NCBI GenBank assembly: GCA_937973965.1
Contig: CALJJQ010000011.1
Coordinates: 1-64,000, forward strand
Source of the DNA: an uncultured Calothrix sp.
Lineage (GTDB): Bacteria > Cyanobacteriota > Cyanobacteriia > Cyanobacteriales > Nostocaceae
Reading direction: 5' to 3'
Length of the DNA stretch: 64,000 nt
Part shown: in pieces, positions 9,294-22,279 of the stretch
How positions within the stretch are numbered: the stretch's first letter is position 1
Layout of the letters: every line of letters starts with the position of its first letter
Program-made: the position numbers and the translations under genes
Notes under the pieces: generated by a model
What the model was told of the DNA's origin: nothing
Seen by the model: the letters and a program-made list of their open reading frames with translations, nothing else
Database searches by the model: none

Positions 9294-10088
9294 TTAACCG
9301 AAACGTCCACCGATGTAATCAGCTGTTTGTTGTTTCGAGGGGTTATTGAAAATAATCTCTGTTTTATCAAACTCGACTAACTCACCCAAATACATAAAAG
9401 CGGTAAAATCAGACACACGAGCCGCTTGTTGCATACTATGGGTGACGATCAAAATTGTCACATGGTTTTTCAATTCACCAATCAACTCTTCAATGCTACC
9501 CGTAGCAATGGGGTCAAGAGCAGAAGTTGGTTCGTCAAACAAAACGATTTCTGGGTCAGCAGCCAAAGCACGAGCAATACACAAACGTTGCTGTTGTCCA
9601 CCGGAAAGAGCAGTACCGGGTTCCTGTAAACGGTCTTTCACTTCATCCCACAACGCAGCACCACGTAAAGCCTTCTCAACTTTTTCATAGACTACAGCCT
9701 TTCTTTTTTCTCCCCGTACCCGTAACCCGTAGGCAACATTTTCAAAGATGGATTTGGGGAAAGGATTTGGCCTTTGAAAAACCATACTGACCCGCATTCT
9801 GACTTCAATCGGGTCGATTTTCGGACTGAGAAGATTTACTCCGTCGGGTTGGAGGGCAATTTCTCCCTTATACTTGTTACCAGGATACAAATCGTGCATC
9901 CGATTAAAGCAGCGTAGCAAGGTGGTTTTACCGCAACCAGAAGGACCAATTAACGCCGTTACTTTTTTATCGTAAATGGGCATCATGATATCCTTGAGGG
10001 CATGTACCTTACCACCGTAGTAGAAATTGAGGTAATTAACTTCAGCCTTCAGGGGTAATTGTTGTGATGAGTCTTTAGTTTCTACCAT
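9294..10088 (-). CDS. pstB: Phosphate ABC transporter ATP-binding protein
   Basis: 264-residue ATPase of the high-affinity phosphate importer PstSCAB, acting at the cytoplasmic face of the inner membrane. All nucleotide-binding motifs are intact: Walker [10 protein letters not shown] (48-56), Q-loop Gln105 in [10 protein letters not shown], signature LSGGQQQRL (161-169), Walker B VLFDEP ending with Glu186, and H-loop His217 in VTHSMQQA. Its ATG overlaps the 3' end of pstA (ATGGTAG), implying translational coupling. Last gene of the operon. Useful as the functional reference for the degenerate paralogue at 13697. Confidence 0.97.
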
Positions 10089-10966
10089 TTGATGTTCTTC
10101 CGTAGACGATAGCGAAGATAAATAGCGATACCGTTCATAGCCAAGGTCATAACCACAAGCACAAAACCAGCAGCAGCAGCAGCAGTCTGGAACTCGATCT
10201 GGGGACGGTCAGTCCAGTTGAACATTTGGATGGGTAAAACCGTGTAGGGGTCAAACAGTTTAGTTGGTAAGAAGGCGATAAAACCAACCGCACCAACTAC
10301 AATTAGGGGAGCAGTTTCACCAAATGCTCGTGCAAGGGCAATAATAATCCCGGTGAGAATCGTGCTCAAGGAGTAAGGAAGAATGTGATCCCAAACTGTT
10401 TGCCATTTAGAAGCACCGCAAGCATAGGATGCTTCACGAACGCTACCGGGGATAGCTCGAATGGCCTCACGGGTAGCAACGATAATAACAGGTAGAATTA
10501 GTAAAGCTAGGGTTAAACCAGCCGAGAGGATACTACGGTCAAACTGCAAACCGTAAACAAATAAACCCAAGCCTAAAAGACCATAAATAATTGAGGGTAT
10601 CCCAGCTAAATTAGCGACGTTGATTTCGATTAAATCGGTAAACCAGTTTTTAGGTGCGTATTCTTCCAGGTAGATACCTGCAGCGATTCCCAGGGGAATT
10701 GCTGCTAGAGCGGTGACAAAAATTACGGAGATGCTTCCCACCCAAGCAGCTAAAATACCAGCTTCGAGGGGGTCGCTACTGGGATAGGAAGTTAAAAATT
10801 GCCAATTGAGACGGGGTAGACCATCGAAAAATAAATCGACCATCAATACTAGTAGAGTACTAATCGCAATCAGCATCGACACCAAACCAACGATACTAAA
10901 AAGATGATCTGATTGCTTGTTACGAGCAATCGTTTGGCGAATTTTTTGAATATCTAGACTTGTCAT
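10082..10966 (-). CDS. pstA: Phosphate ABC transporter permease PstA
   Basis: Inner-membrane permease subunit with about six transmembrane segments and the EAA-type cytoplasmic loop ([21 protein letters not shown]) that docks on PstB. The ATG at 10966 is preferred because the pstC stop codon (10968-10970) ends one base before it; the open frame upstream would overlap pstC by about 40 bp. Length about 294 is normal. The order pstS-pstC-pstA-pstB on the minus strand is the classical one. Confidence 0.95.
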
Positions 10967-10967
10967 C

Positions 10968-11909
10968 TCAATAAGCCTCCCGATAACGCTTGGTGAGGAT
11001 ATGGCCGACAATGTTAAAAATCAATGTCATTAACAGCAGAGTGAGACCAACCGCGAAAATGGTTTGATACTCCAAACTGCCATAGGGAATATCCCCCTTA
11101 CTAACGGAAACGATATAAGCAGTCATGGTTTGAGCTGGGTCCATTGGATTCCAGGTCAAATTTGGTTGTCCACCAGCTGCGATCGCTACCACCATTGTCT
11201 CACCAATAGCGCGGGAAATTCCCAAAATATAGGCTGCTGAGATCCCGGAAATTGCAGAAGGTAAAATCACATTGATTGCTGTTTGGAAGCGGGTTGCACC
11301 GGTTGCATAGGAACCTTCCCGCAAATAATCAGGAACGGAACGCATTGCATCTTCACTCAAGGAGCTAATATAGGGAATAATCATGATTCCCATCACAACT
11401 CCTGCACTCAACATATTTGAGAAGGGTAACTCAGGTAAGATCACCTGTAACAATGGGGTGACAAACAGTAAGGCAAAGTAACCGTAAACAACCGTAGGAA
11501 CACCAGCTAACAATTCTAAAGCTGGTTTAACTACTTCCCGTACTGTGACTGGGGCAAATTCACTCAAGTAAACAGCTGCAATTGTTCCCAAGGGAATAGC
11601 CACACACAAAGCGACAAAAGTAGTCACTAAAGTCCCAGAAATCAACGTAATGATCCCGAAGTGTTTATCCTCAAATAAAGGTGTCCACTGGGTATCTGTG
11701 AAAAACTGCCAAATGCTGACTTCGTCGGCATGTTGGTAGAAAAACTGGAAAGTTTCGTAAACTAAGATAGAGAGAATCCCGATCGTAATTGCTACGGATG
11801 AAAAAGCTGCGAGAAATAAAATAAATTCAATCCCTTTTTCCCGGATATCCCGCAATGCCTTGGGAGACAGTGCAGTTGTTTGAGGTTTTTTTACAGATGT
11901 TCTAGCCAC
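10968..11909 (-). CDS. pstC: Phosphate ABC transporter permease PstC
   Basis: 313 residues with six predicted membrane spans and the permease loop SEDAMRSVPDYLREGSYATGAT. It forms the translocation pore with PstA. GTG start at 11909 supported by an AAGGA ribosome site eight bases upstream. A 353-bp structured spacer separates it from pstS, which fits the common need for far more PstS than permease; the two genes are nevertheless on the same strand without an obvious separate promoter. Confidence 0.95.
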   Translation of the reverse strand: MARTSVKKPQTTALSPKALRDIREKGIEFILFLAAFSSVAITIGILSILVYETFQFFYQHADEVSIWQFFTDTQWTPLFEDKHFGIITLISGTLVTTFVALCVAIPLGTIAAVYLSEFAPVTVREVVKPALELLAGVPTVVYGYFALLFVTPLLQVILPELPFSNMLSAGVVMGIMIIPYISSLSEDAMRSVPDYLREGSYATGATRFQTAINVILPSAISGISAAYILGISRAIGETMVVAIAAGGQPNLTWNPMDPAQTMTAYIVSVSKGDIPYGSLEYQTIFAVGLTLLLMTLIFNIVGHILTKRYREAY

Positions 11910-12262: not shown

Positions 12263-13252
12263 TTAGTTTTTGGGACGCACTAACAATTCCTGAATTTTCA
12301 CACCGATTTTCTCTTTACCACCGAAGACTGTACCGGTTTGCTTCTGATTGAAACGGTTTAAAATGGTGGCGTAAGCAGTGCTAGGTAGGGCTACGTATTT
12401 AACTTTCTTGTTGATGGCAACAGCGTTTTTGAGATAATAAGTTACAAAATCCTTGACTCCTGGTTTGTCAGCAGATTTTAGGTTAACGTAGATGAAGATG
12501 GGACGAGATAATGGAGTATACTTACCACTTCTAATGTTAGCTTCGGTAGGAGCCACACCGTCAATGGTTACATATCTGAGCTTGCTCTTGTTTTCTTCGT
12601 AGTAAGCAACACCAAAGTAACCTAAACCACCGCGATCACGAGCAACACCGTTTACAGTCACGTTGTCGTCTTCGGTTGCAGTATAGTCACCACGACTCGA
12701 TTTGGATTTACCAACAATGGCTTCGGTGAAGTAATCGAAGGTTCCAGAGTTGGTTCCAGCACCAAATAATCTCAGGGGAACATTGGGGAAACCAGCGCGA
12801 ACTTGGCTCCAGTTAGTGATTTTACCTTGAGCTGCGGGTTCCCAAATTTTCTTGAGTTCGGCAACGGTCAAGTTTTTAGCCCAAGTATTTTGAGGGTTAA
12901 TAACAACTGTCAAACCATCGTAAGCAACAGGAAGCTCGATAAATTTGATACCAGCTTTTTCACAATCGGCAATTTCTTTGGCAAGAATGGGACGAGAAGC
13001 GTTGGAAATGTCAGTTTCCCCACGGCAGAATTTCTTGAAACCACCACCAGTGCCGGAAACACCCACGGTAACGCGGGTTTTACCACCGGTAGTCTTGGTG
13101 AATCCCTCTGCTGCTGCTTCGGTCAAGGGGAAAACGGTGCTGGAACCATCTACTTTCACAACGCTTTGAGACAGGGCAGCAGGAACCGCAATGGAGATGC
13201 TAGCTGCAACTGCGGCAGCTGTACCTAATAATTTTACTTTCAAACTGTTCAC
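12263..13252 (-). CDS. pstS: Periplasmic phosphate-binding protein
   Basis: Binds orthophosphate in the periplasm and hands it to PstCA. From the GTG at 13252 the protein begins with a Sec signal peptide (basic NSLKVK, then a hydrophobic core ending PAALSQS). The mature part has the phosphate-binding signatures [38 protein letters not shown], and [12 protein letters not shown]. The GTG at 13252 is chosen because AGGAG (minus strand, 13264-13260) lies seven bases before it; the frame runs upstream to 13294 through that site. About 329 residues. Preceded by a Pho box at 13384-13402. Confidence 0.95.
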
Positions 13253-13383
13253 AAGGATACTCCTAGTTGAGACTTTTCGTTTCCGCGCAATCACACCACC
13301 CCTAGAATCTCCGTATTTGGTTAAGAATTAATTATTTTTTTAACTACCATACTTAAACTTTTAGCTAAAAAATGCTTATAATA

Positions 13384-13402
13384 TGGTTAATTACAGGTTA
13401 AG
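13384..13402 (-). promoter_or_regulatory. Pho box upstream of pstS
   Basis: On the minus strand two 8-bp direct repeats, CTTAACCT and ATTAACCA, are separated by three bases (GTA), giving the 11-bp period of PhoB/SphR sites in cyanobacteria. The position is about 130 bp before the pstS start. A further single CTTAACCA lies closer to the gene near 13318. Motif match seen directly; binding of the response regulator is inference. Confidence 0.75.
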
Positions 13403-13696: not shown

Positions 13697-14497
13697 ATGA
13701 ACAACTTAAAAATTGCTTTAAAAGTTGAAAATCTAAGTGTTTTCTATGGAGAAAGACAAATTCTCCAGAATGTTTCCCTAGACTTTTATGAAAATCAAGT
13801 AACTGTCCTATTTGGGTATACCAACTCTGGTAAATCAACTTTATTAAAAGCATTAAATCGATTGATTGAGTTAGAAACATCGGTAAGATATGAGGGTAAA
13901 ATAGAATTTTTTGGGCAAAACATTCTGACGCGGAGAACTAATATCAACCGCTTACGTCGGCAAATAGGAATGATTTTTCCTACACCAAATACTTTTCCCA
14001 TGAGTATTTATGATAATGTCATATATGGAGTCAAATTAATCGGTTGGTATCCCAAACAGGAATTAAATTTGATTGTTGAAGTAGCCTTACGTCGAGTAGG
14101 TTTGTGGGATGAAGTCAAAAATAGATTGCATCAACCTGCCAATGATTTATCCTTACTACAGCAACAATTGTTGTGCATTGCTAGAGCTTTAGCCTTACAA
14201 CCCAAAGTTCTCATTATGGATGAACCTTGTATGAGTATTGGTATGGTTAAAAGTATCCGTATAGAAGAACTGATTCATTGTCTAAGACAGGATTTAACTA
14301 TTATTATTGCCACCCAAAATCCCCAATTTGCATTACGGGTATCTGATTTCATTGCTGTTATGGATGTGGATAGTAATATTGGTGGGTTGGCTGAATTTAA
14401 TTCCACACTTCAATTTGTGCAGAAGGGTTTAGAAAGCAAGAAGGATGAACAAGCTTATAACTTATATAATTTACCAGTTTATAATCGGAAGTTTTAG
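13697..14497 (+). CDS. Degenerate PstB paralogue (predicted pseudo-ATPase)
   Basis: 266 residues aligning end to end with PstB (KNRL-HQP, IARALA, RVSDF all shared), yet most catalytic motifs are altered. Walker A survives as GYTNSGKST (40-48) and Walker B keeps Asp175-Glu176. But the Q-loop Gln is Pro95, the ABC signature LSGGQ reads LSLLQ (151-155), the D-loop SALD is lost (MSIGM), and the H-loop His is Gln207. The last 40 residues diverge completely. The frame has no stop or frameshift, so the gene may be maintained for a non-transport role such as signalling or inhibition of the pst system, or it may be in early decay. It is divergent from pstS with about 440 bp between. Confidence 0.8.
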   Translation: MNNLKIALKVENLSVFYGERQILQNVSLDFYENQVTVLFGYTNSGKSTLLKALNRLIELETSVRYEGKIEFFGQNILTRRTNINRLRRQIGMIFPTPNTFPMSIYDNVIYGVKLIGWYPKQELNLIVEVALRRVGLWDEVKNRLHQPANDLSLLQQQLLCIARALALQPKVLIMDEPCMSIGMVKSIRIEELIHCLRQDLTIIIATQNPQFALRVSDFIAVMDVDSNIGGLAEFNSTLQFVQKGLESKKDEQAYNLYNLPVYNRKF

Positions 14498-15063: not shown

Positions 15064-18000
15064 TTATTTACTAACACCAGCTAGGGGGAAAATAATTTCC
15101 TCCAGGGTGCGAACTAACTCTTGTTCATTATAGGGTTTAGAGAAATAAGCTCGCGCACCCAATTGCATAGCTAGCTGTCGGTGCTTGTCGCTGCTACGGG
15201 AAGTTAACATGGCAACAGGGATATCCCGTAAATCCGTATTCGCTTTCACCCTTCCTAAAAATCCGTAACCGTCCACCCTTGGCATTTCAATATCGCAAAT
15301 CACAGCTTGAACCTGTAAACCATTTTGCAACTTTTCAATGGCATCCTGTCCATCTTTGGCTTGTTCAACTAGATAACCAGCTTTTTCCAAAGTTAGTGCG
15401 AGGAAGCGACGTACATTAATTGAGTCATCGACAATGAGAATAGTACCTTTTTGATTTTTGGGTGTTTCCTTGGTTTGATTGGGAATTGCACCAAGGAAAG
15501 CGTGTTGTAACTTGGCGGATGGTAACTGTTGGTTGCGGGGAGTACGGTCCTGGGTAGCGATCGCATACAACAATTCAGTCGCGTTTACCAAGGGGACAAC
15601 CCGACCATCACCCAAGATTGTGCAATTGTTGAATCCGGGGGGAAGGCTAATAGTTCCTTCCACAACCCTCACCGCAACTTCTTGTTCACCCCAGGTTCGA
15701 TCGACAAGTAAACCCACAGGTTGATTATTGTTGTAGATTAATAATACAGATTCGGCGTTAATCGCTGCGGAGGTTTCCAGGTTGGGGTTGTCGTAACGGG
15801 GACAGTTAAATTCTAAGTATTTGTGCAAGCGAATTAGGGGAATAGTCGTCCCTTGCCAAGGAATTACCTCACCGCTACCCATTGGTACAACTTGTTCTGG
15901 TTGTAATAAAAATATCTCCGATACCACATCGGTGGGTAAAGCGAGTAGCATCATATTGCTTTCTACTAGTAATACCCGTGCAACCGAGAGGGTAAAGGGT
16001 ACGGAAAGGGTGAAGGTTGTTCCCTTTCCAGGAACGGTTTCCACTTTGATATCCCCGCGGATATTTTTCAGGTTATTACGCACCACATCCATCCCCACAC
16101 CCCGTCCCGATAGGGAAGTTACTTGTTCGGAGGTGGTAAATCCCGGTTCAAAGATTAATGATAATAATTCATCATCGGTAGCTTGAGCAAGAAGGGAAGC
16201 ATCTAAACCCATTTTGAGAGCGCGATCGCGAATTTTGTCCAGGGAAATACCTCGACCATCGTCCCGTACACGAATAACGGTACGGTTTCCTTGGTGTGAT
16301 GCTTTGATTTCAATTAATCCCTGTTCCGGTTTACCGAGACGACGACGTGTTTGCGGGTCTTCAATTCCGTGGTCAAAGGCATTCCGCAACAAGTGCATTA
16401 ATGGGTCATTTAAGGCTTCCAGGATGTTACGCTCAATTAAAATAGAACTACCTTCCACCTGAAGTTGTACTGATTTGCCGTATTCAACCCCCAAATCCCG
16501 TAAAGCGCGGGGGAATCGATCCACCACATCGGAAAGGGGACGCATCCGCACCTGGGTTAATTTGCGTTGAATTTGTTTAGAGGTCTTATTTAATTTGCGA
16601 GCAATATTATCGGTGTCATCTAAACTTAATTGCAAATCGGTGGTGACTTCCTGTACCTGGACAATTGTTTCCATCACTTCCTGGGACAGCAGGTTTAAAT
16701 CGTTGTAACGATCCATTTCCAAACTGTCAAATCCGTGGGAACTAGTTTCTGCATGAAAGTCACTAAATAATGCACCACTACCCGGATTGATTTCCGATAA
16801 TTCCGTTTGGAAGGAGATGGCTTGAGTAGCAATTTTATCGTAGCTGGTACGTAACTGTTGGTTTTCCCGCTCCAGGGTTTGCACCCGATCACTTAAATTG
16901 CGGATCAGTTTGCGCATCCTTTCCAGCTGCAAGTTTAAGCCGTTGCGCTGAACAATTAACTCCCCAAATAGGTCATTAATTTGTTCCAATTGCCGACTGG
17001 ACACCCGTACCGTATTTTCTGCGCTTTCCCGTTCCTTAATCGGTTGACTGGATTGGTAGGATAAATCGGTAACGGGGGTATATTCTGCACTGGCAATATT
17101 ATCAACCGTAGGTAGGGATGCAGCTACCAACTCCTGGGGAACCACTTTCTCTACAACCGTGGATTCCTCCAACTCGGTCTTTGAGACCTCCCCAACTGGT
17201 GTTATACTCAATTCCGGATTGGCAAAACTTTCCGTAGATATGGCTTCGACAGTAAATTCCGGTAATTCCACCTGGAACTCTGTTGTTTCCTCCTGTTCGG
17301 CGAAGGCTGCTTCTAAAGCGGCAAAGTCAGTGGAAATCAAATCCGGATCAAACCAAGACTGATTTTCATCATCAACAAGGGGTGACTCCTCAACAAAAAC
17401 ACTTTCCGGGAAATTATTTGTAGTCAGATGTTCTGAATCATCCTGAATCTGGGGTAAAGATAACCCTTGCCAATCCAAATCACGGGGTATTTGATCCAGT
17501 TGGTTTGTTAGCACTAACGCCTGTACCCGCCGCCAAGTATCTAAAGCAACACGGGCTAATTCCTCAACTTGACTTGCCTCCACCACCTCCAAGTAACGTG
17601 CCACCGCCCCACACAAATCGGTAAACGCCCCTAACTGCAACATTTCCCCCAATCCACCCAATTCAGCCGCCATAATTGCCACCTCTTCCTTCAGGCAGGG
17701 CTGTTGAGTATCATTCAGCACAGACTCCAGACGTTGCAGACACCCTTCCACCTCCGTTTCAAACAACAGAGGAATAATATCTTGCTCATCCTCTGGAGAT
17801 AACAGCGTCGAAGCATCTTCAGGGGTCGGGTCACCCAGTTGAGTGTGCAACTCGCGAAAAATCGGATTGCATTGCTGTTCTAGCCATTGGGGACTAGGTT
17901 CATAACCTTGACCGTGCAATTCCACAATTTGGCGCAGACAATCAACCCCAGACAAAAGTAAACTCTGCACCTGGGCATCAATAGTATAACGTTTGGTTTT

Positions 18001-18234
18001 TAATACCTTGAAGGAATCTTCGAGACGGTGGGCAAAATCACTCAAGGTGCGAAAACCCATCATTCCCGCTCCACCCTTAATTGAGTGAGCTGCACGCATC
18101 GCTCCATTGATTTTTTCCACCTCAATTCGACCTGTGCTATCAATCTCTAATAACACCCTTTCCAAGGTATCAATGTAATCCGTTGCTTCCTCCAGAAATT
18201 GCATCTGGATTTCATACTCTTTATCCTGTGCCAT
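15064..18234 (-). CDS. CheA-type hybrid histidine kinase with C-terminal receiver (PixL/HmpE-like)
   Basis: 1056-residue chemotaxis kinase. Order of domains: HPt (1-110) with phospho-acceptor His50 in MRAAHSIKGGAGMMGF; a long acidic linker (about 260-400); dimerisation helices and HATPase (about 420-760) with LRNAFDHGIEDP, DDGRGI and GRGVGMD; a CheW-like domain (about 760-900); and a receiver (about 930-1050) with the phospho-Asp in VICDIEMP. This architecture is that of PixL/TaxAY/HmpE in cyanobacterial phototaxis and hormogonium motility. Last gene of the five-gene operon, separated from the receptor gene by a 367-bp spacer containing a MITE. Confidence 0.93.
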   Translation of the reverse strand: MAQDKEYEIQMQFLEEATDYIDTLERVLLEIDSTGRIEVEKINGAMRAAHSIKGGAGMMGFRTLSDFAHRLEDSFKVLKTKRYTIDAQVQSLLLSGVDCLRQIVELHGQGYEPSPQWLEQQCNPIFRELHTQLGDPTPEDASTLLSPEDEQDIIPLLFETEVEGCLQRLESVLNDTQQPCLKEEVAIMAAELGGLGEMLQLGAFTDLCGAVARYLEVVEASQVEELARVALDTWRRVQALVLTNQLDQIPRDLDWQGLSLPQIQDDSEHLTTNNFPESVFVEESPLVDDENQSWFDPDLISTDFAALEAAFAEQEETTEFQVELPEFTVEAISTESFANPELSITPVGEVSKTELEESTVVEKVVPQELVAASLPTVDNIASAEYTPVTDLSYQSSQPIKERESAENTVRVSSRQLEQINDLFGELIVQRNGLNLQLERMRKLIRNLSDRVQTLERENQQLRTSYDKIATQAISFQTELSEINPGSGALFSDFHAETSSHGFDSLEMDRYNDLNLLSQEVMETIVQVQEVTTDLQLSLDDTDNIARKLNKTSKQIQRKLTQVRMRPLSDVVDRFPRALRDLGVEYGKSVQLQVEGSSILIERNILEALNDPLMHLLRNAFDHGIEDPQTRRRLGKPEQGLIEIKASHQGNRTVIRVRDDGRGISLDKIRDRALKMGLDASLLAQATDDELLSLIFEPGFTTSEQVTSLSGRGVGMDVVRNNLKNIRGDIKVETVPGKGTTFTLSVPFTLSVARVLLVESNMMLLALPTDVVSEIFLLQPEQVVPMGSGEVIPWQGTTIPLIRLHKYLEFNCPRYDNPNLETSAAINAESVLLIYNNNQPVGLLVDRTWGEQEVAVRVVEGTISLPPGFNNCTILGDGRVVPLVNATELLYAIATQDRTPRNQQLPSAKLQHAFLGAIPNQTKETPKNQKGTILIVDDSINVRRFLALTLEKAGYLVEQAKDGQDAIEKLQNGLQVQAVICDIEMPRVDGYGFLGRVKANTDLRDIPVAMLTSRSSDKHRQLAMQLGARAYFSKPYNEQELVRTLEEIIFPLAGVSK

Positions 18235-18447
18235 GCCCTATTCCCTAGTCTCTAGTCGTTAATTAAATTAGTTAGGGTTCACTTGTACCAGTTCACAATT
18301 TATTCAAGTCTCGCCTGACTTAAACTCTATTTACCTGCTGCAATTGATGATTTTGCTAATTGGTATTCTTTTGTTGTAGCCTAACTAACAGCGAACCACA
18401 CATTTCTTGGATAGGGAACCGAAATTAACAGTCTGTTAGCTCTAGAA

Positions 18448-18538
18448 GGCGTTGCTGATTTATGGGATGATTTAGCTTAATTTTGAACGAAATACTCATA
18501 GTTTCAGCCTCTGTTTCATCCCGCATTTATGCAATGCC
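18448..18538 (+). mobile_element. 91-bp MITE-like element, copy A
   Basis: Imperfect terminal inverted repeats: left end GGCGTTGCTGATTTATGGG, and right end reading inward as GGCATTGCATAAATGCGGG. It is flanked by an exact 8-bp direct repeat CTCTAGAA (18440-18447 and 18539-18546), as expected for a target duplication. A second, inverted copy of exactly 91 bp is at 37324-37414. It lies between the receptor and CheA genes. The parental transposase is not in this window. Confidence 0.8.
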
Positions 18539-18601
18539 CTCTAGAATTATGAAAATTTAACGGTAAACAGTTAACTGTCAACAGATTCCCTTCCCATCTA
18601 A

Positions 18602-21448
18602 TTAATCCACTTTAAACGTACCGACCGTATCCTGTAGTTGGCGAGAGATTTGCACAGTTTGCTGCAATGATTCTGACACCTGTCGGGATGAATAGCTAGT
18701 ATGTTGGGAAACCGCGGCGATTTGCTCCATTAACTGACTCACCTGATGGGATGTTTCTAACTGGGAGGAGGTGGCCATAGAAATTGATTGGATTAATACA
18801 TCCAATTGTCGGGATACGTCCAAAATTTGATTCAAACTTTGTTTGGCATCCTCAACTACACGGGTTCCCTCCACTACCTGGCTAGTACCTTGCTCCATCG
18901 CTTGTACCACCTCGCTGGTTTCCCGTTGAATATTTTCCACGATTTGTTCAATTTCCTTGGTTGCAGCAGCCGAGCGAGCTGCCAATTCTCCCACTTCTTC
19001 GGCTACCACCACAAATCCTTGGGCTTCCTCTCCTGCACGTGCAGCCTCAATCCCCGCGTTAATCGCGAGGAGGTTGGTCTGCATGGAAATCTGGTTAATT
19101 AATGCCACAACCCGGGAAATTTGCTGAGTAGATTCACCTAACCGTTTCACCTTCTTCGCCGTTTCACCGACGGTTTCCCGCATACTGAGAATGCTTTTCA
19201 CGGTGCGTTCCATCGCCGTACCACTATTGGTAGCAGTATTCCGAGCTTCATTGGCAACAGCTGCCGCTTTTTGGGCGCTCAGTGCCACCGTTTGCATGGA
19301 ACGGGTCATATTATCAACCGCATCCAGGGTACGATTGATTTCTTCCGCTTGATTCAAAGCTTCAATCGCTAATCGGTCGATGGCACTGGAATTATCGGCA
19401 ATGGATGCATTTACCTGGGTAGCCGTTTGTTTTACCTGGGTGACAATCCCCCGCAAGCTTTCAACGATGGAGTTAAAAAAGTCGGCAACCGTACCAATTT
19501 CTCCGGTAGTCACATCTGCCCTCACCGTTAAATCCCCACTGGCTGCACCTTCAACTTCACTCAATAACTCCAATAACTGCATTTGTAATGCTTCTTTTTG
19601 TTGCCGTTCCGACATCGAACTGGCTTCAGCCATCCTGCGACCCTGTTCAATTTCCTCCAGTAGATATCCGTGTTCCAAGGCAAAACCCATTTGGGTGGAT
19701 ATCTGCCGGAAAAACTCAAGATCCGCAGGTTGCCACACCCTGGGAGAATCGCAGTGGTGGGCAATCAATAAACCAATTAATTGCTCTTTGGTGACGATTG
19801 GTGCAATTAAATTGGCTTTAACGGCAAATTTTTCTAGCATTTGCACATAGCAAGTTGCATTTTGGAGGCTGGTATCTTGGTAAATATTACTAATCGCCCG
19901 AATTCTGCCATCTTTATAGGTTTCCACATGGCGTTCTCGAAAACAAGGGTCATCAATGTGTACTCCCATCATTTTCGGGAAACCAGCAGCTACTGATTCC
20001 GCAACCACCACCCCATCCCAAGTTTCGGGATTAAACTTGTAAAATACTACCCGGTCTGTTTTCAAGCCTTGGCGAATTTCCCTGACTGCGGTTTTGAGGA
20101 TATCCTCCGTTTCCAGGGTACGCCGCATTTTTAACGTGATGTCGGTAAGATTTTTAGCCCGTTCGGTGTCAATTTCTTGTTTTTTAATCAGGGCTTGTAA
20201 TTGTTCCGCCATCTGATTAATATTTGTCCCTAAATCACCCAATTCATCGTCACTTTGAACTTGTATCCGGGTGCTTAAATCCCCCCGTCCAATTCGTTCC
20301 ACGGTTTCGGTGGCATTCAAAAGCGGATCTGTGGCACGTTTTGCTAACCAATAGGCAATCAGTCCTACAACTGTGGCAATTACAGCTGTACCTAGTAGGG
20401 TAGCCAGAGCCAATTGATTACGGGCTTCAAAGGCAGTTGCAGCATCATTTGCTACTAATACAGCCCACTGTAGGCTGGGGAAACCAGGTAAATCGCTGGG
20501 GGTAGATGCGTAGCTGAATAGTTTCTCCTGGTTATTAATCTTGCCAGTAAAGGTGATGCTTTCAGTGGTTGCAGGTTTTTGGAGATTGGGAAACTCCGCT
20601 TTTATTTCCCGACCAACCTTGTTGCTAATACTACTGAAAAAAATCTTACCAGTGGCATCGCCGAGAAAATATTCTTCCTTGTGATCATCGTGTTGAGAAT
20701 GGAGTTTGAGTAAGCTTTCAACGGATGTAACTGGCATCCGCGCACGAATAACTCCTACCAACTGACCGGAACCAGTTTCCTGAATCGGAGCAACCACAAA
20801 AATACTGTTTTTACCATTGGTCTTTGATACCCGTGGCTGGGTAATTAAGGGTTTTTGGTCTTGCAACACCTTCTGAAAATAATCAGATTCTCGGTGATTA
20901 CTAATTGCTGCTTCTCCTGGTTTTGGCGTGGATTGGGCAATTACATCCCCATTCAAGTCAAAAACGGCGATGTTATCATACACCTTGTAGATATCGACAT
21001 ATTCGTCGAGAACGGCTTGTTTTTCAGACTGTGTACCAAAATCGCGAATCCGCCGATTGGCAAAGATAGGTAAACTAGCCATCACCTGAATATCGCCATA
21101 GCGCTCAAACATGAAGCGATTAATCTTATCAGCCAACTCTTCCGTATGGGAAGCCTGAATCTTCGCGATTTTATTTGTAATACTTCCACTGGCGATCGCA
21201 TTGGCAACCACACCCAGGGCTAAAACGGGAATTGTGCCAATGGCGATCGCCATAATTGTGGCTTTGGTACGGATTTTCATCCGTTTGAAACCGTTTGATA
21301 CCACTTGCAATGGTGATGTCCGGGTTGCCAAAGGGGATGACTCCGAAGCTAATACCAAGCTAGTATTGTGTTTGTCTGCTGGTATGGCTGGCTGTAAAGC
21401 TGTTTGCTGCTTTTCTTTCGCGTCAGCCGCGTCTGTCTTATTAAACAT
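18602..21448 (-). CDS. Methyl-accepting chemotaxis protein with dCache, HAMP and GAF domains
   Basis: 948 residues. A cytoplasmic N-terminal tail precedes TM1 (about 65-90); a dCache-type periplasmic sensor (about 95-345) contains SDYFQKVLQ and [20 protein letters not shown]2 (about 347-367) leads to HAMP, then a GAF domain (about 440-590) and a methyl-accepting signalling domain with the hairpin-tip segment [23 protein letters not shown]. The GAF is of the cyanobacterial kind with ATCYVQML at the usual chromophore position, but Tyr follows the Cys where bilin-binding domains have His, so bilin binding is doubtful. Receptor for the CheA/CheW complex of this operon, likely controlling type IV pilus motility. 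Confidence 0.92.
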
Positions 21449-21781
21449 AAATTAATTGCCCTGTTTTGGGAAAGAGAACACAACGCCGTTTGTGGTAGTA
21501 AAAACACCCTGATTTTGGATTTTGGATTTTAGATTACCCTTATGGCTACGCGCAGCAATGGGAGGAAAGCAATCGTAACAGGAAGCAGAACTCTGCTATC
21601 AAGCAACATCCAAGACCGTGACTTCCTCACCGCTACGTGTCTATAGCTTTTGGATTACTTTGAGGTAAATTCGGTAGAAATAATACGGAACTATCCTACG
21701 AGAAGATAAATTCACCTCAGACCCTGACCTCTAGTACAGACGACCCGTGGGGTCGTCTCCCCGACTCCCTAAAAAAATGTA
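21449..21781. other. Spacer between receptor and CheW genes
   Basis: Contains a heptamer-like array (TTTTGGA units, 21513-21535), a tract near 21662-21715 resembling the one at 9250-9290, and a palindrome near 21735 (AGACGACCC-CGTG-GGGTCGTCT). No gene seen. The receptor and CheW genes are on the same strand and may still be co-transcribed. Confidence 0.5.
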
Positions 21782-22279
21782 TTAATTTTGACGCAGAACC
21801 GAGGAGTGAACAATGGCATGGGCATCTAAAGCCAGCAAAATTTCATTGTCGTGGTTAATACATCCCCGCAGATAGGGAACAAGACTACTGGCTACCTGGC
21901 CAATGGGGGAACGTATTTCCTCGACGAGAAATTTCGTAGTGCCAATAATGTCATCGACTACTAAACCCAATAAAGTTGTATCGACGCGCACAATTACCAC
22001 GCTGTACTGGCGTAAACGTGTTTCTAGGGATTCTATGTTCAATAGTTGGGGCAAATCAATTGCCCAAATAATTCGACTTCGCCAGTTCATTAACCCTAAA
22101 ACACAAGCAGGCATTCCCGGCATTGCTGTCACTGATTCGACGGGAATTACGATTGCCTCTTGGGTATGGCGCATTGACAAAACGGCTGGGGTATGCCGAT
22201 TAAGCATAAATTTGAGATAACCATCGGTGGTATTGGCCAGATTTGCCTGGTTGGCGATCGCTAGTTGGGATTTGTTCAT
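21782..22279 (-). CDS. CheW-like coupling protein (PixI/HmpC-like)
   Basis: 165-residue single CheW domain: ILLALDAH-type and MNWRSRIIWAIDLPQLL segments, and the hydrophobic VTAMPGMPACVLGLMNWRS strand that fits the receptor/kinase interface. It links the receptor to the CheA kinase in the cytoplasmic signalling array. The start at 22279 is four bases after the stop of the CheY gene, implying coupled translation. Confidence 0.9.
   Translation of the reverse strand: MNKSQLAIANQANLANTTDGYLKFMLNRHTPAVLSMRHTQEAIVIPVESVTAMPGMPACVLGLMNWRSRIIWAIDLPQLLNIESLETRLRQYSVVIVRVDTTLLGLVVDDIIGTTKFLVEEIRSPIGQVASSLVPYLRGCINHDNEILLALDAHAIVHSSVLRQN

Follow-up and report, generated by a model that had tools for sequence, protein, structure and literature searches.

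How PstSCAB signals phosphate (Pi) status to PhoR is debated, and according to one proposal the conformation of the ATPase subunit PstB is read via PhoU and PhoR; the contacts between PstB, PhoU and PhoR are reviewed in the same source (PMC5775613, excerpt). Two engineered E. coli PstB variants described there do not transport, one of them (Q160K) signalling Pi sufficiency and the other (E179Q) Pi starvation (PMC5775613, excerpt). In ABC ATPases, the Q-loop and the H-loop sense the gamma-phosphate and the signature closes the dimer, and the Q-loop also contacts the transmembrane domains (PMC7756269, excerpt). NBDs with altered catalytic motifs that are kept by selection are known from heterodimeric ABC transporters with a degenerate site, the hallmark of which is a change of the Walker B Glu (PMC7756269, excerpt). 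Enterococcus faecalis has a pair of dissimilar PstB paralogues in a single pst locus, the tandem proteins PstB1 and PstB2, which have all motifs intact and play non-overlapping roles (PMC12096839, excerpt). In cyanobacteria, an extra pstB (PstB1') accompanies the pst operon of Synechocystis PCC 6803 and Anabaena variabilis (PMC1906773, excerpt), two pst operons are described for Nodularia under phosphate limitation (PMC9846622, excerpt), and only pstB1 and pstB2 are given for Nostoc PCC 7118 in the excerpted part of PMC7564538.

The window (the whole stretch of DNA analysed, 64,000 nucleotides from an uncultured Calothrix sp.) carries a further kind of paralogue, a pseudo-PstB gene here called X, whose start lies some 400 bases from pstS and whose transcription leads away from pstSCAB (Table 1). 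The original prediction had described it as a lesion-free 266-codon frame with Pro95 at the Q-loop, LSLLQ in place of LSGGQ, no D-loop and Gln207 at the H-loop, with Walker A and the Walker B Glu retained, 3.6 kb away from an intact pstB. Re-reading and alignment bore out each of these points exactly: X is a single frame with an ATG start, and the neighbouring pstB has all ATPase motifs. The positions, which we take to be the Q-loop, D-loop and H-loop of X, were placed by aligning X to canonical PstB. X scores 92.4 bits with PF00005 (ABC ATPase domain), above the Pfam gathering cut-off of 25, and 259.3 bits with TIGR00972 (PstB equivalog), below the curated cut-off of 343.2. Among the residues expected in the TIGR00972 family, those of Walker A and Walker B are present (K46, D175, E176), and the Q-loop Gln, LSGGQ, the D-loop Asp and the H-loop His are replaced (P95, LSLLQ, G182, Q207).

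Table 1. Positions of X, its motifs and the adjoining pst genes in the window; the last row gives loci by their handles.
Feature	Position	Strand	Remarks
Pseudo-PstB gene (X)	13697..14497	+	266 aa, catalytically degenerate PstB-type ABC ATPase; PF00005 and TIGR00972 scores in the text
Walker A, residues 40-48	13814..13840	+	GYTNSGKST, retained; Lys46 in 143/143 aligned X
Q-loop position 95	13979..13981	+	Gln to Pro; sequence MIFPTP
Signature position, residues 151-155	14147..14161	+	LSLLQ replaces LSGGQ
Walker B, residues 171-176	14207..14224	+	VLIMDE, retained; D175 E176 in 143/143 aligned X
D-loop position	14231..14242	+	MSIG replaces SALD; D182 to G
H-loop position 207	14315..14317	+	His to Gln; sequence ATQN
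Canonical pstB	9294..10088	-	all ATPase motifs; TIGR00972 363.5 bits, above cut-off
pstA	10082..11011	-	TIGR00974 291 bits, above cut-off
pstC	10968..11909	-	named from homology and position
pstS, divergent from X	12263..13294	-	TIGR02136 314 bits, above cut-off
Three Pho-box-like repeats, shared upstream region of pstS and X	13373..13402	-	oriented to pstS; PWM score 20.06
Stand-alone X divergent from f10	L105, L106, L112, L118, L138, L222, L243-L250, L252, L255, L256, L259		

An AlphaFold2 model of X, based on an alignment of 38 sequences (window X, its orthologue in Calothrix sp. NIES-3974, window PstB and 35 other PstBs), reached a mean pLDDT of 90.1 and a pTM of 0.88. Only residues 248-254 and 258-266 fall below a pLDDT of 50, marking the C-terminal tail as a low-confidence region. 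The top PDB match of the model was E. coli PstB in PstSCAB (9k3x; TM 0.86/0.93, 42% identity), and an ABC fold is confidently predicted for X. Since the alignment consisted mostly of canonical PstB, the model speaks for the compatibility of the X sequence with this fold and not for retained function. X resembles E. coli PstB in its fold, in Walker A and Walker B and in the conserved segment after the Q-loop; it differs from the PstB of PstSCAB in the four lost motifs, the TIGR00972 score below the cut-off, the C-terminal tail and the direction of transcription.

Walker A, Walker B, LSGGQ and the H-loop are all intact in both E. faecalis paralogues (PMC12096839, excerpt) but not in X, so that X and pstB of the window are not a pair in which both paralogues have all ATPase motifs. 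X differs from the degenerate-site exporters (PMC7756269, excerpt) as a free NBD of the importer type and in retaining the Walker B Glu. The Q160K and E179Q variants of E. coli PstB combine absence of transport with a fixed signalling output, as we propose for X (PMC5775613, excerpt), but they are laboratory mutants of the sole PstB, while X is an additional copy that occurs in nature and is altered at other residues. PstB1' can be likened to X by description only, and no X gene was noticed in the excerpted account of Nodularia. The open-access papers searched yielded no prior description of a Q-loop-less PstB family. Work by Hudek from 2016 reportedly deals with Nostoc punctiforme PstB1.

X is widespread among the relatives of the host. 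The A1 profile, built from 20 X rows, was searched against all 217 genomes of the family to which Calothrix sp. NIES-3974 belongs, which we take to be the Nostocaceae. Profile matches together with individually read loci place X in at least 150 of the 217 genomes, and it was not found in up to 67. The count comprises 141 genomes with scores of at least 463.7 bits, of which 138 were read and all carry X (G169, G170 and G181 were counted on score), and nine genomes identified by reading (G000, G001, G010, G188, G198, G199, G200, G217 and G218). A profile-score cut-off for X was rejected, as G188, G198 and G199 have X genes with scores (447-456 bits) in the range of canonical PstBs; the 463-bit matches of G112 and G113 are canonical PstBs, and so are the matches read in 17 single-match genomes. 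Outside the family, 51 genomes (of 388 in the class) had a match at E <= 1e-110, none above 421.2 bits, and the 22 of these 51 matches that were read (including G036, G038 and G042) all keep the Q-loop Gln, in a search that would miss more divergent X. At one locus (L234, G135:C1:2955668-2956444), X is present and another PstB-like match lies at 2953920. The X family is also a caution that a pstB annotation in these cyanobacteria need not denote an import ATPase.

The origin of X was approached with a tree of 65 PstB-like ORFs, for which 60 genomes of relatives were searched. Window X falls within a separate X clade, on one side of a branch with support 94/88. X and the PstB of the second pst operon type group together, apart from the neighbouring PstB; X is 50-55% identical to the former and 40% to the latter. 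An origin of X from the adjacent pstB is rejected on the trees, in which the nearest canonical protein belongs to the other pst operon type. In a tree with G200 and without the long-branched G010, the Calothrix and G200 X genes form a clade (100/99) that is sister to 17 other X rows, with 98/93 for the whole group. After removal of the motif columns, the main X branch had support of 100/99 and the Calothrix branch 91/88; the union of X then also included one canonical row (94/92), and the strict X group appeared in 18% of bootstrap trees. Judged from these trees, a single origin of X is likely, and in what appears the best explanation X goes back to a duplication of the PstB from the second pst operon type, which is absent from the window genome. 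This genome has two PstBs above the cut-off, on contigs C11 and C106, neither of which belongs to the parental type in the tree, and trees and match counts indicate that X is retained in genomes lacking that type, the window genome included.

Motif states were counted in one alignment of 143 X genes. The Walker A Lys and the Walker B Asp-Glu are present in all 143, and the Q-loop Gln is present in a single one, with Pro (103), Ser (27), Ala (9), Gly (2) or Thr (1) in the others. LSGGQ or ISGGQ is kept in 104, the D-loop Asp in 137 and the H-loop His in 127. Every ATPase motif counted was complete in all 111 canonical PstBs (109 from the same loci set plus G112 and G113), and comparison of the two groups gave a Fisher p of 9e-5 for the His and of 2e-11 for the signature, with shared ancestry uncorrected. 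In four further X genes (one of G184/G187; G188, G198 and G199), the Gln is missing throughout, with Walker A, the Walker B Asp-Glu and the His retained; two of the four read LSYGQ. The residues P97, N98, F100, S103, Y105 and N107 beside the Q-loop are conserved in both X and canonical pst2-type PstB. The wider control, 64 PstB-like ORFs from diverse phyla, kept the Q-loop Gln in 62. One exception, a PstB of a Chloroflexi MAG (L012), has Ala at this position with LSGGQ and His intact; the other (L072) is a fragment with doubtful alignment. LSxGQ or LAAGQ was found in 21 of the 64, so loss of a single signature Gly does not prove inactivity.

Nearest to the window in the trees stand G217, G218 and G200. 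The X proteins of G217 and G218 have LSLVQ, have lost the D-loop Asp and carry Lys for His and Pro or Ala for Gln. The X of G200 (L336/L343) keeps Gln95 and has LPILLQ, no D-loop Asp and Gln for His, which rules out loss of the Q-loop Gln as the sole founding event. On the tree without motif columns, the minimum number of changes was 3 for the Q-loop, 5 for the signature, 2 for the D-loop and 4 for the H-loop. Because of these multiple changes and of Gln95 in G200, the motif losses are at least partly parallel.

Flanks were fetched for 120 X loci, and 80 of them lie beside pst genes. In 52, X lies on the pstCAB strand, downstream of these genes at a median gap of 669; in 27, X diverges from the pstS of a pstSCAB operon, as in the window, and one locus has another arrangement. 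In the remaining 40, the flank is free of pst genes, and some of these flanks are cut short by contig ends. The X of G218 is also divergent from a pstS. A gene of family f3 occurs at 61 of the 120 loci (32/52 downstream of pstCAB, 16/27 divergent from pstS, 12/40 without pst genes and the one other), and its recurrence across neighbourhood types indicates that X stays put while the adjoining pst operon differs. Members of this conserved family, about 430 aa long and encoded on the strand of X at a median distance of some 200 bases downstream (e.g. L178:3634-4920), look zinc-ribbon and NYN/LOTUS-like by eye only.

Pho boxes were scored with a PWM taken from Table 1 of PMC1906773 (excerpt), using a threshold of 13. 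Scores at or above this value were found upstream of pstS in 29/29 and 33/35 cases, upstream of 14 of the 27 X genes that diverge from pstS, and in 2 of 249 cases from six control gene families. X genes away from pstS scored much like the controls (3/52 downstream of pstCAB and 1/40 without pst genes in the flank), and the scores do not support X as a Pho-box gene independent of pstS.

X is a conserved pseudo-PstB family, and we infer a regulatory role for it. We assign a probability of about 0.5 to the reading that X is an ATP-binding, non-cycling pseudo-PstB which replaces PstB in the Pst-PhoU(SphU)-SphS signalling assembly; the partner that X binds, its binding of ATP with no turnover and the direction of its effect are the parts that we infer. 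After duplication, the nucleotide-binding core and the fold would have been kept and the gamma-phosphate sensors lost. In the window lineage, the motifs that close the dimer would have been lost as well; the D-loop has a role in this closure. X would then take the place of PstB, either on the PstC/PstA groove beside canonical PstB or directly on PhoU, and, unable to close and hydrolyse, would lock the assembly into a single signalling state and dampen uptake. A PstB that cannot cycle is expected to hold the signalling state because the E. coli Q160K and E179Q variants behave so. A role as regulator or decoy of phosphate uptake or SphS signalling, which the original prediction had put forward, would fit the anatomy of the protein, its neighbourhood and the E. 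coli PstB data (PMC5775613, excerpt). With the ATP-binding motifs kept and the gamma-phosphate sensors repeatedly lost, X proteins are natural, ready-made subunits for testing the PstB-conformation idea, available in laboratory relatives of the host. PhoU was present in all nine genomes tested, eight of which carry X. Weighing against the regulatory reading are the Pho-box scores of X genes away from pstS, the presence of X in G014 in the absence of PstA and canonical PstB, the possibly relaxed constraint in G217 and G218, the early end of X in G188, the up to 67 family genomes in which X was not found, LSxGQ or LAAGQ in PstBs of diverse phyla, and Gln95 in the X of G200.

X and PstB could instead form a heterodimeric NBD pair on PstCA that has one canonical and one degenerate ATP site and still imports phosphate, in the manner of heterodimeric ABC exporters. 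Type I exporters provide known cases of degenerate sites (PMC7756269, excerpt), and in the ABCC1 exporter Gln-to-Asn changes in the Q-loops reduced MgATP binding and raised Vmax (PMC7756269, excerpt), so that an ATPase is not necessarily silenced by loss of the Q-loop alone. The LSGGQ kept by the 104 X proteins could complete the PstB site, and it is retained in 49 of the 52 X genes downstream of pstCAB vs 22 of the 40 without pst genes in the flank (Fisher p 1e-5, shared ancestry uncorrected). All 18 losses in the latter group fall in one neighbourhood type. X proteins that keep LSGGQ may form a transport-competent heterodimer. Window X, however, also lacks the signature and the D-loop, so that neither composite site should work, and X persists where the parental PstB type is missing, as in the window genome. 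We consider a working heterodimer rather unlikely as an explanation of X. A pair of X and PstB that includes the window protein would not be expected to transport, and the regulatory reading is preferred for window X because both composite ATP sites of such a pair are without essential motifs.

Another alternative is that X acts without the Pst permease, as an ATP-charged adaptor binding PhoU or SphS or in a task unrelated to phosphate. The genome G014, a single 3.76-Mb contig of 99% completeness, is the only one among the 217 without a PstA match at 1e-40 (best weak match 5e-18), and no canonical PstB was found in it. It keeps X (L138, with LSMGQ and Ala for Gln), PhoU, two PBP-like proteins and a Pit transporter; its X gave NG86 dN/dS values of 0.05-0.12 against the nearest relatives, at saturated dS (>=1.3). 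In the sister species G206, pstA and pstS are present along with a canonical PstB, and there is no second A1 match. Since G014 has X without PstA or canonical PstB, a role within the transporter is not obligatory. In addition, 18 of the 40 X genes without pst genes in the flank stand alone, divergent from a conserved protein (family f10), and all 18 lack LSGGQ. Judged by eye, the f10 protein (about 410 aa) resembles a TPR protein and appears to be secreted. Against permease-free action, G014 is one genome only and its Pst system may have been lost recently or may lie on an unassembled plasmid. The 80 X loci that adjoin pst genes also argue against it. Action of X without the permease is improbable in our view, and we regard as scarcely less doubtful the specific form in which X, as an ATP-loaded mimic of PstB, attaches directly to PhoU (SphU) or SphS and reports ATP or phosphate status with no Pst permease involved. 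If true, PstB-type signalling would be separated from PstB-type transport.

The claim that the open frame of X reflects selection is supported by comparison with Calothrix sp. NIES-3974, the one further Calothrix genome among those searched. Its X orthologue is 91% identical, occupies the same locus position and has the same four lesions; the X genes of G217 and G218 have lesions of the same class. For the window/NIES-3974 pair, dN/dS was 0.07 with YN00 (0.042/0.607) and 0.05 with NG86 (0.043/0.873; bootstrap 0.030-0.083), and 85 of the 114 nucleotide differences fall at third codon positions. For the window lineage, this is neither a ratio near 1 nor an absence of orthologues with the same substitutions. 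The YN00 ratios of the same two genomes were about 0.08 for pstB, 0.21 for pstA, 0.08 for pstC and 0.10 for pstS. When neutral evolution was simulated with substitutions only (0.3 per site), 1 copy in 2000 acquired no stop.

Across the family, median NG86 dN/dS values of random pairs with dS 0.2-1.2 were 0.118 for X with LSGGQ and His kept (828/1200 pairs), 0.116 for X with the signature also lost (252/528 pairs), 0.085 for canonical pst2-type PstB (390/1200 pairs) and 0.067 for canonical pst1-type PstB (183/496 pairs). A YN00 run gave 0.106, 0.079, 0.076 and 0.065 for the same four groups. In the profile search of the family genomes, no stop was seen inside an X match among the matches listed, where X frames were read as stop-free ORFs and openness is partly by construction. 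The G217/G218 pair had a dN/dS of 0.35 over 245 codons (0.42-0.50 with unaligned ends), which suggests that constraint on X may be relaxed in these two genomes. That X is a redundant pstB in simple decay is most improbable and, for the window lineage, ruled out by dN/dS and the age of the family: the repeated motif losses, the long branch to the Calothrix X pair (1.22 in the 65-ORF tree, 0.98 in the tree with G200), the G217/G218 ratio and a shortened frame in G188 point towards decay, but the low ratio of the window pair, the lack of stops among the matches listed, the intact Walker A and Walker B in 143/143 X and the presence of X in at least 150 genomes stand against it.

The X of G188 (L398, G188:C1:1726053-1726733) is a 237-aa frame that ends early, with the profile matched to position 225 of 259, a possible C-terminal truncation. 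We also note that, directly past X, the window encodes on the minus strand (15064-22279) ORFs that by eye resemble a CheA-like hybrid kinase, a methyl-accepting taxis protein and CheW; the CheA-like neighbour of X is also present in Calothrix sp. NIES-3974.
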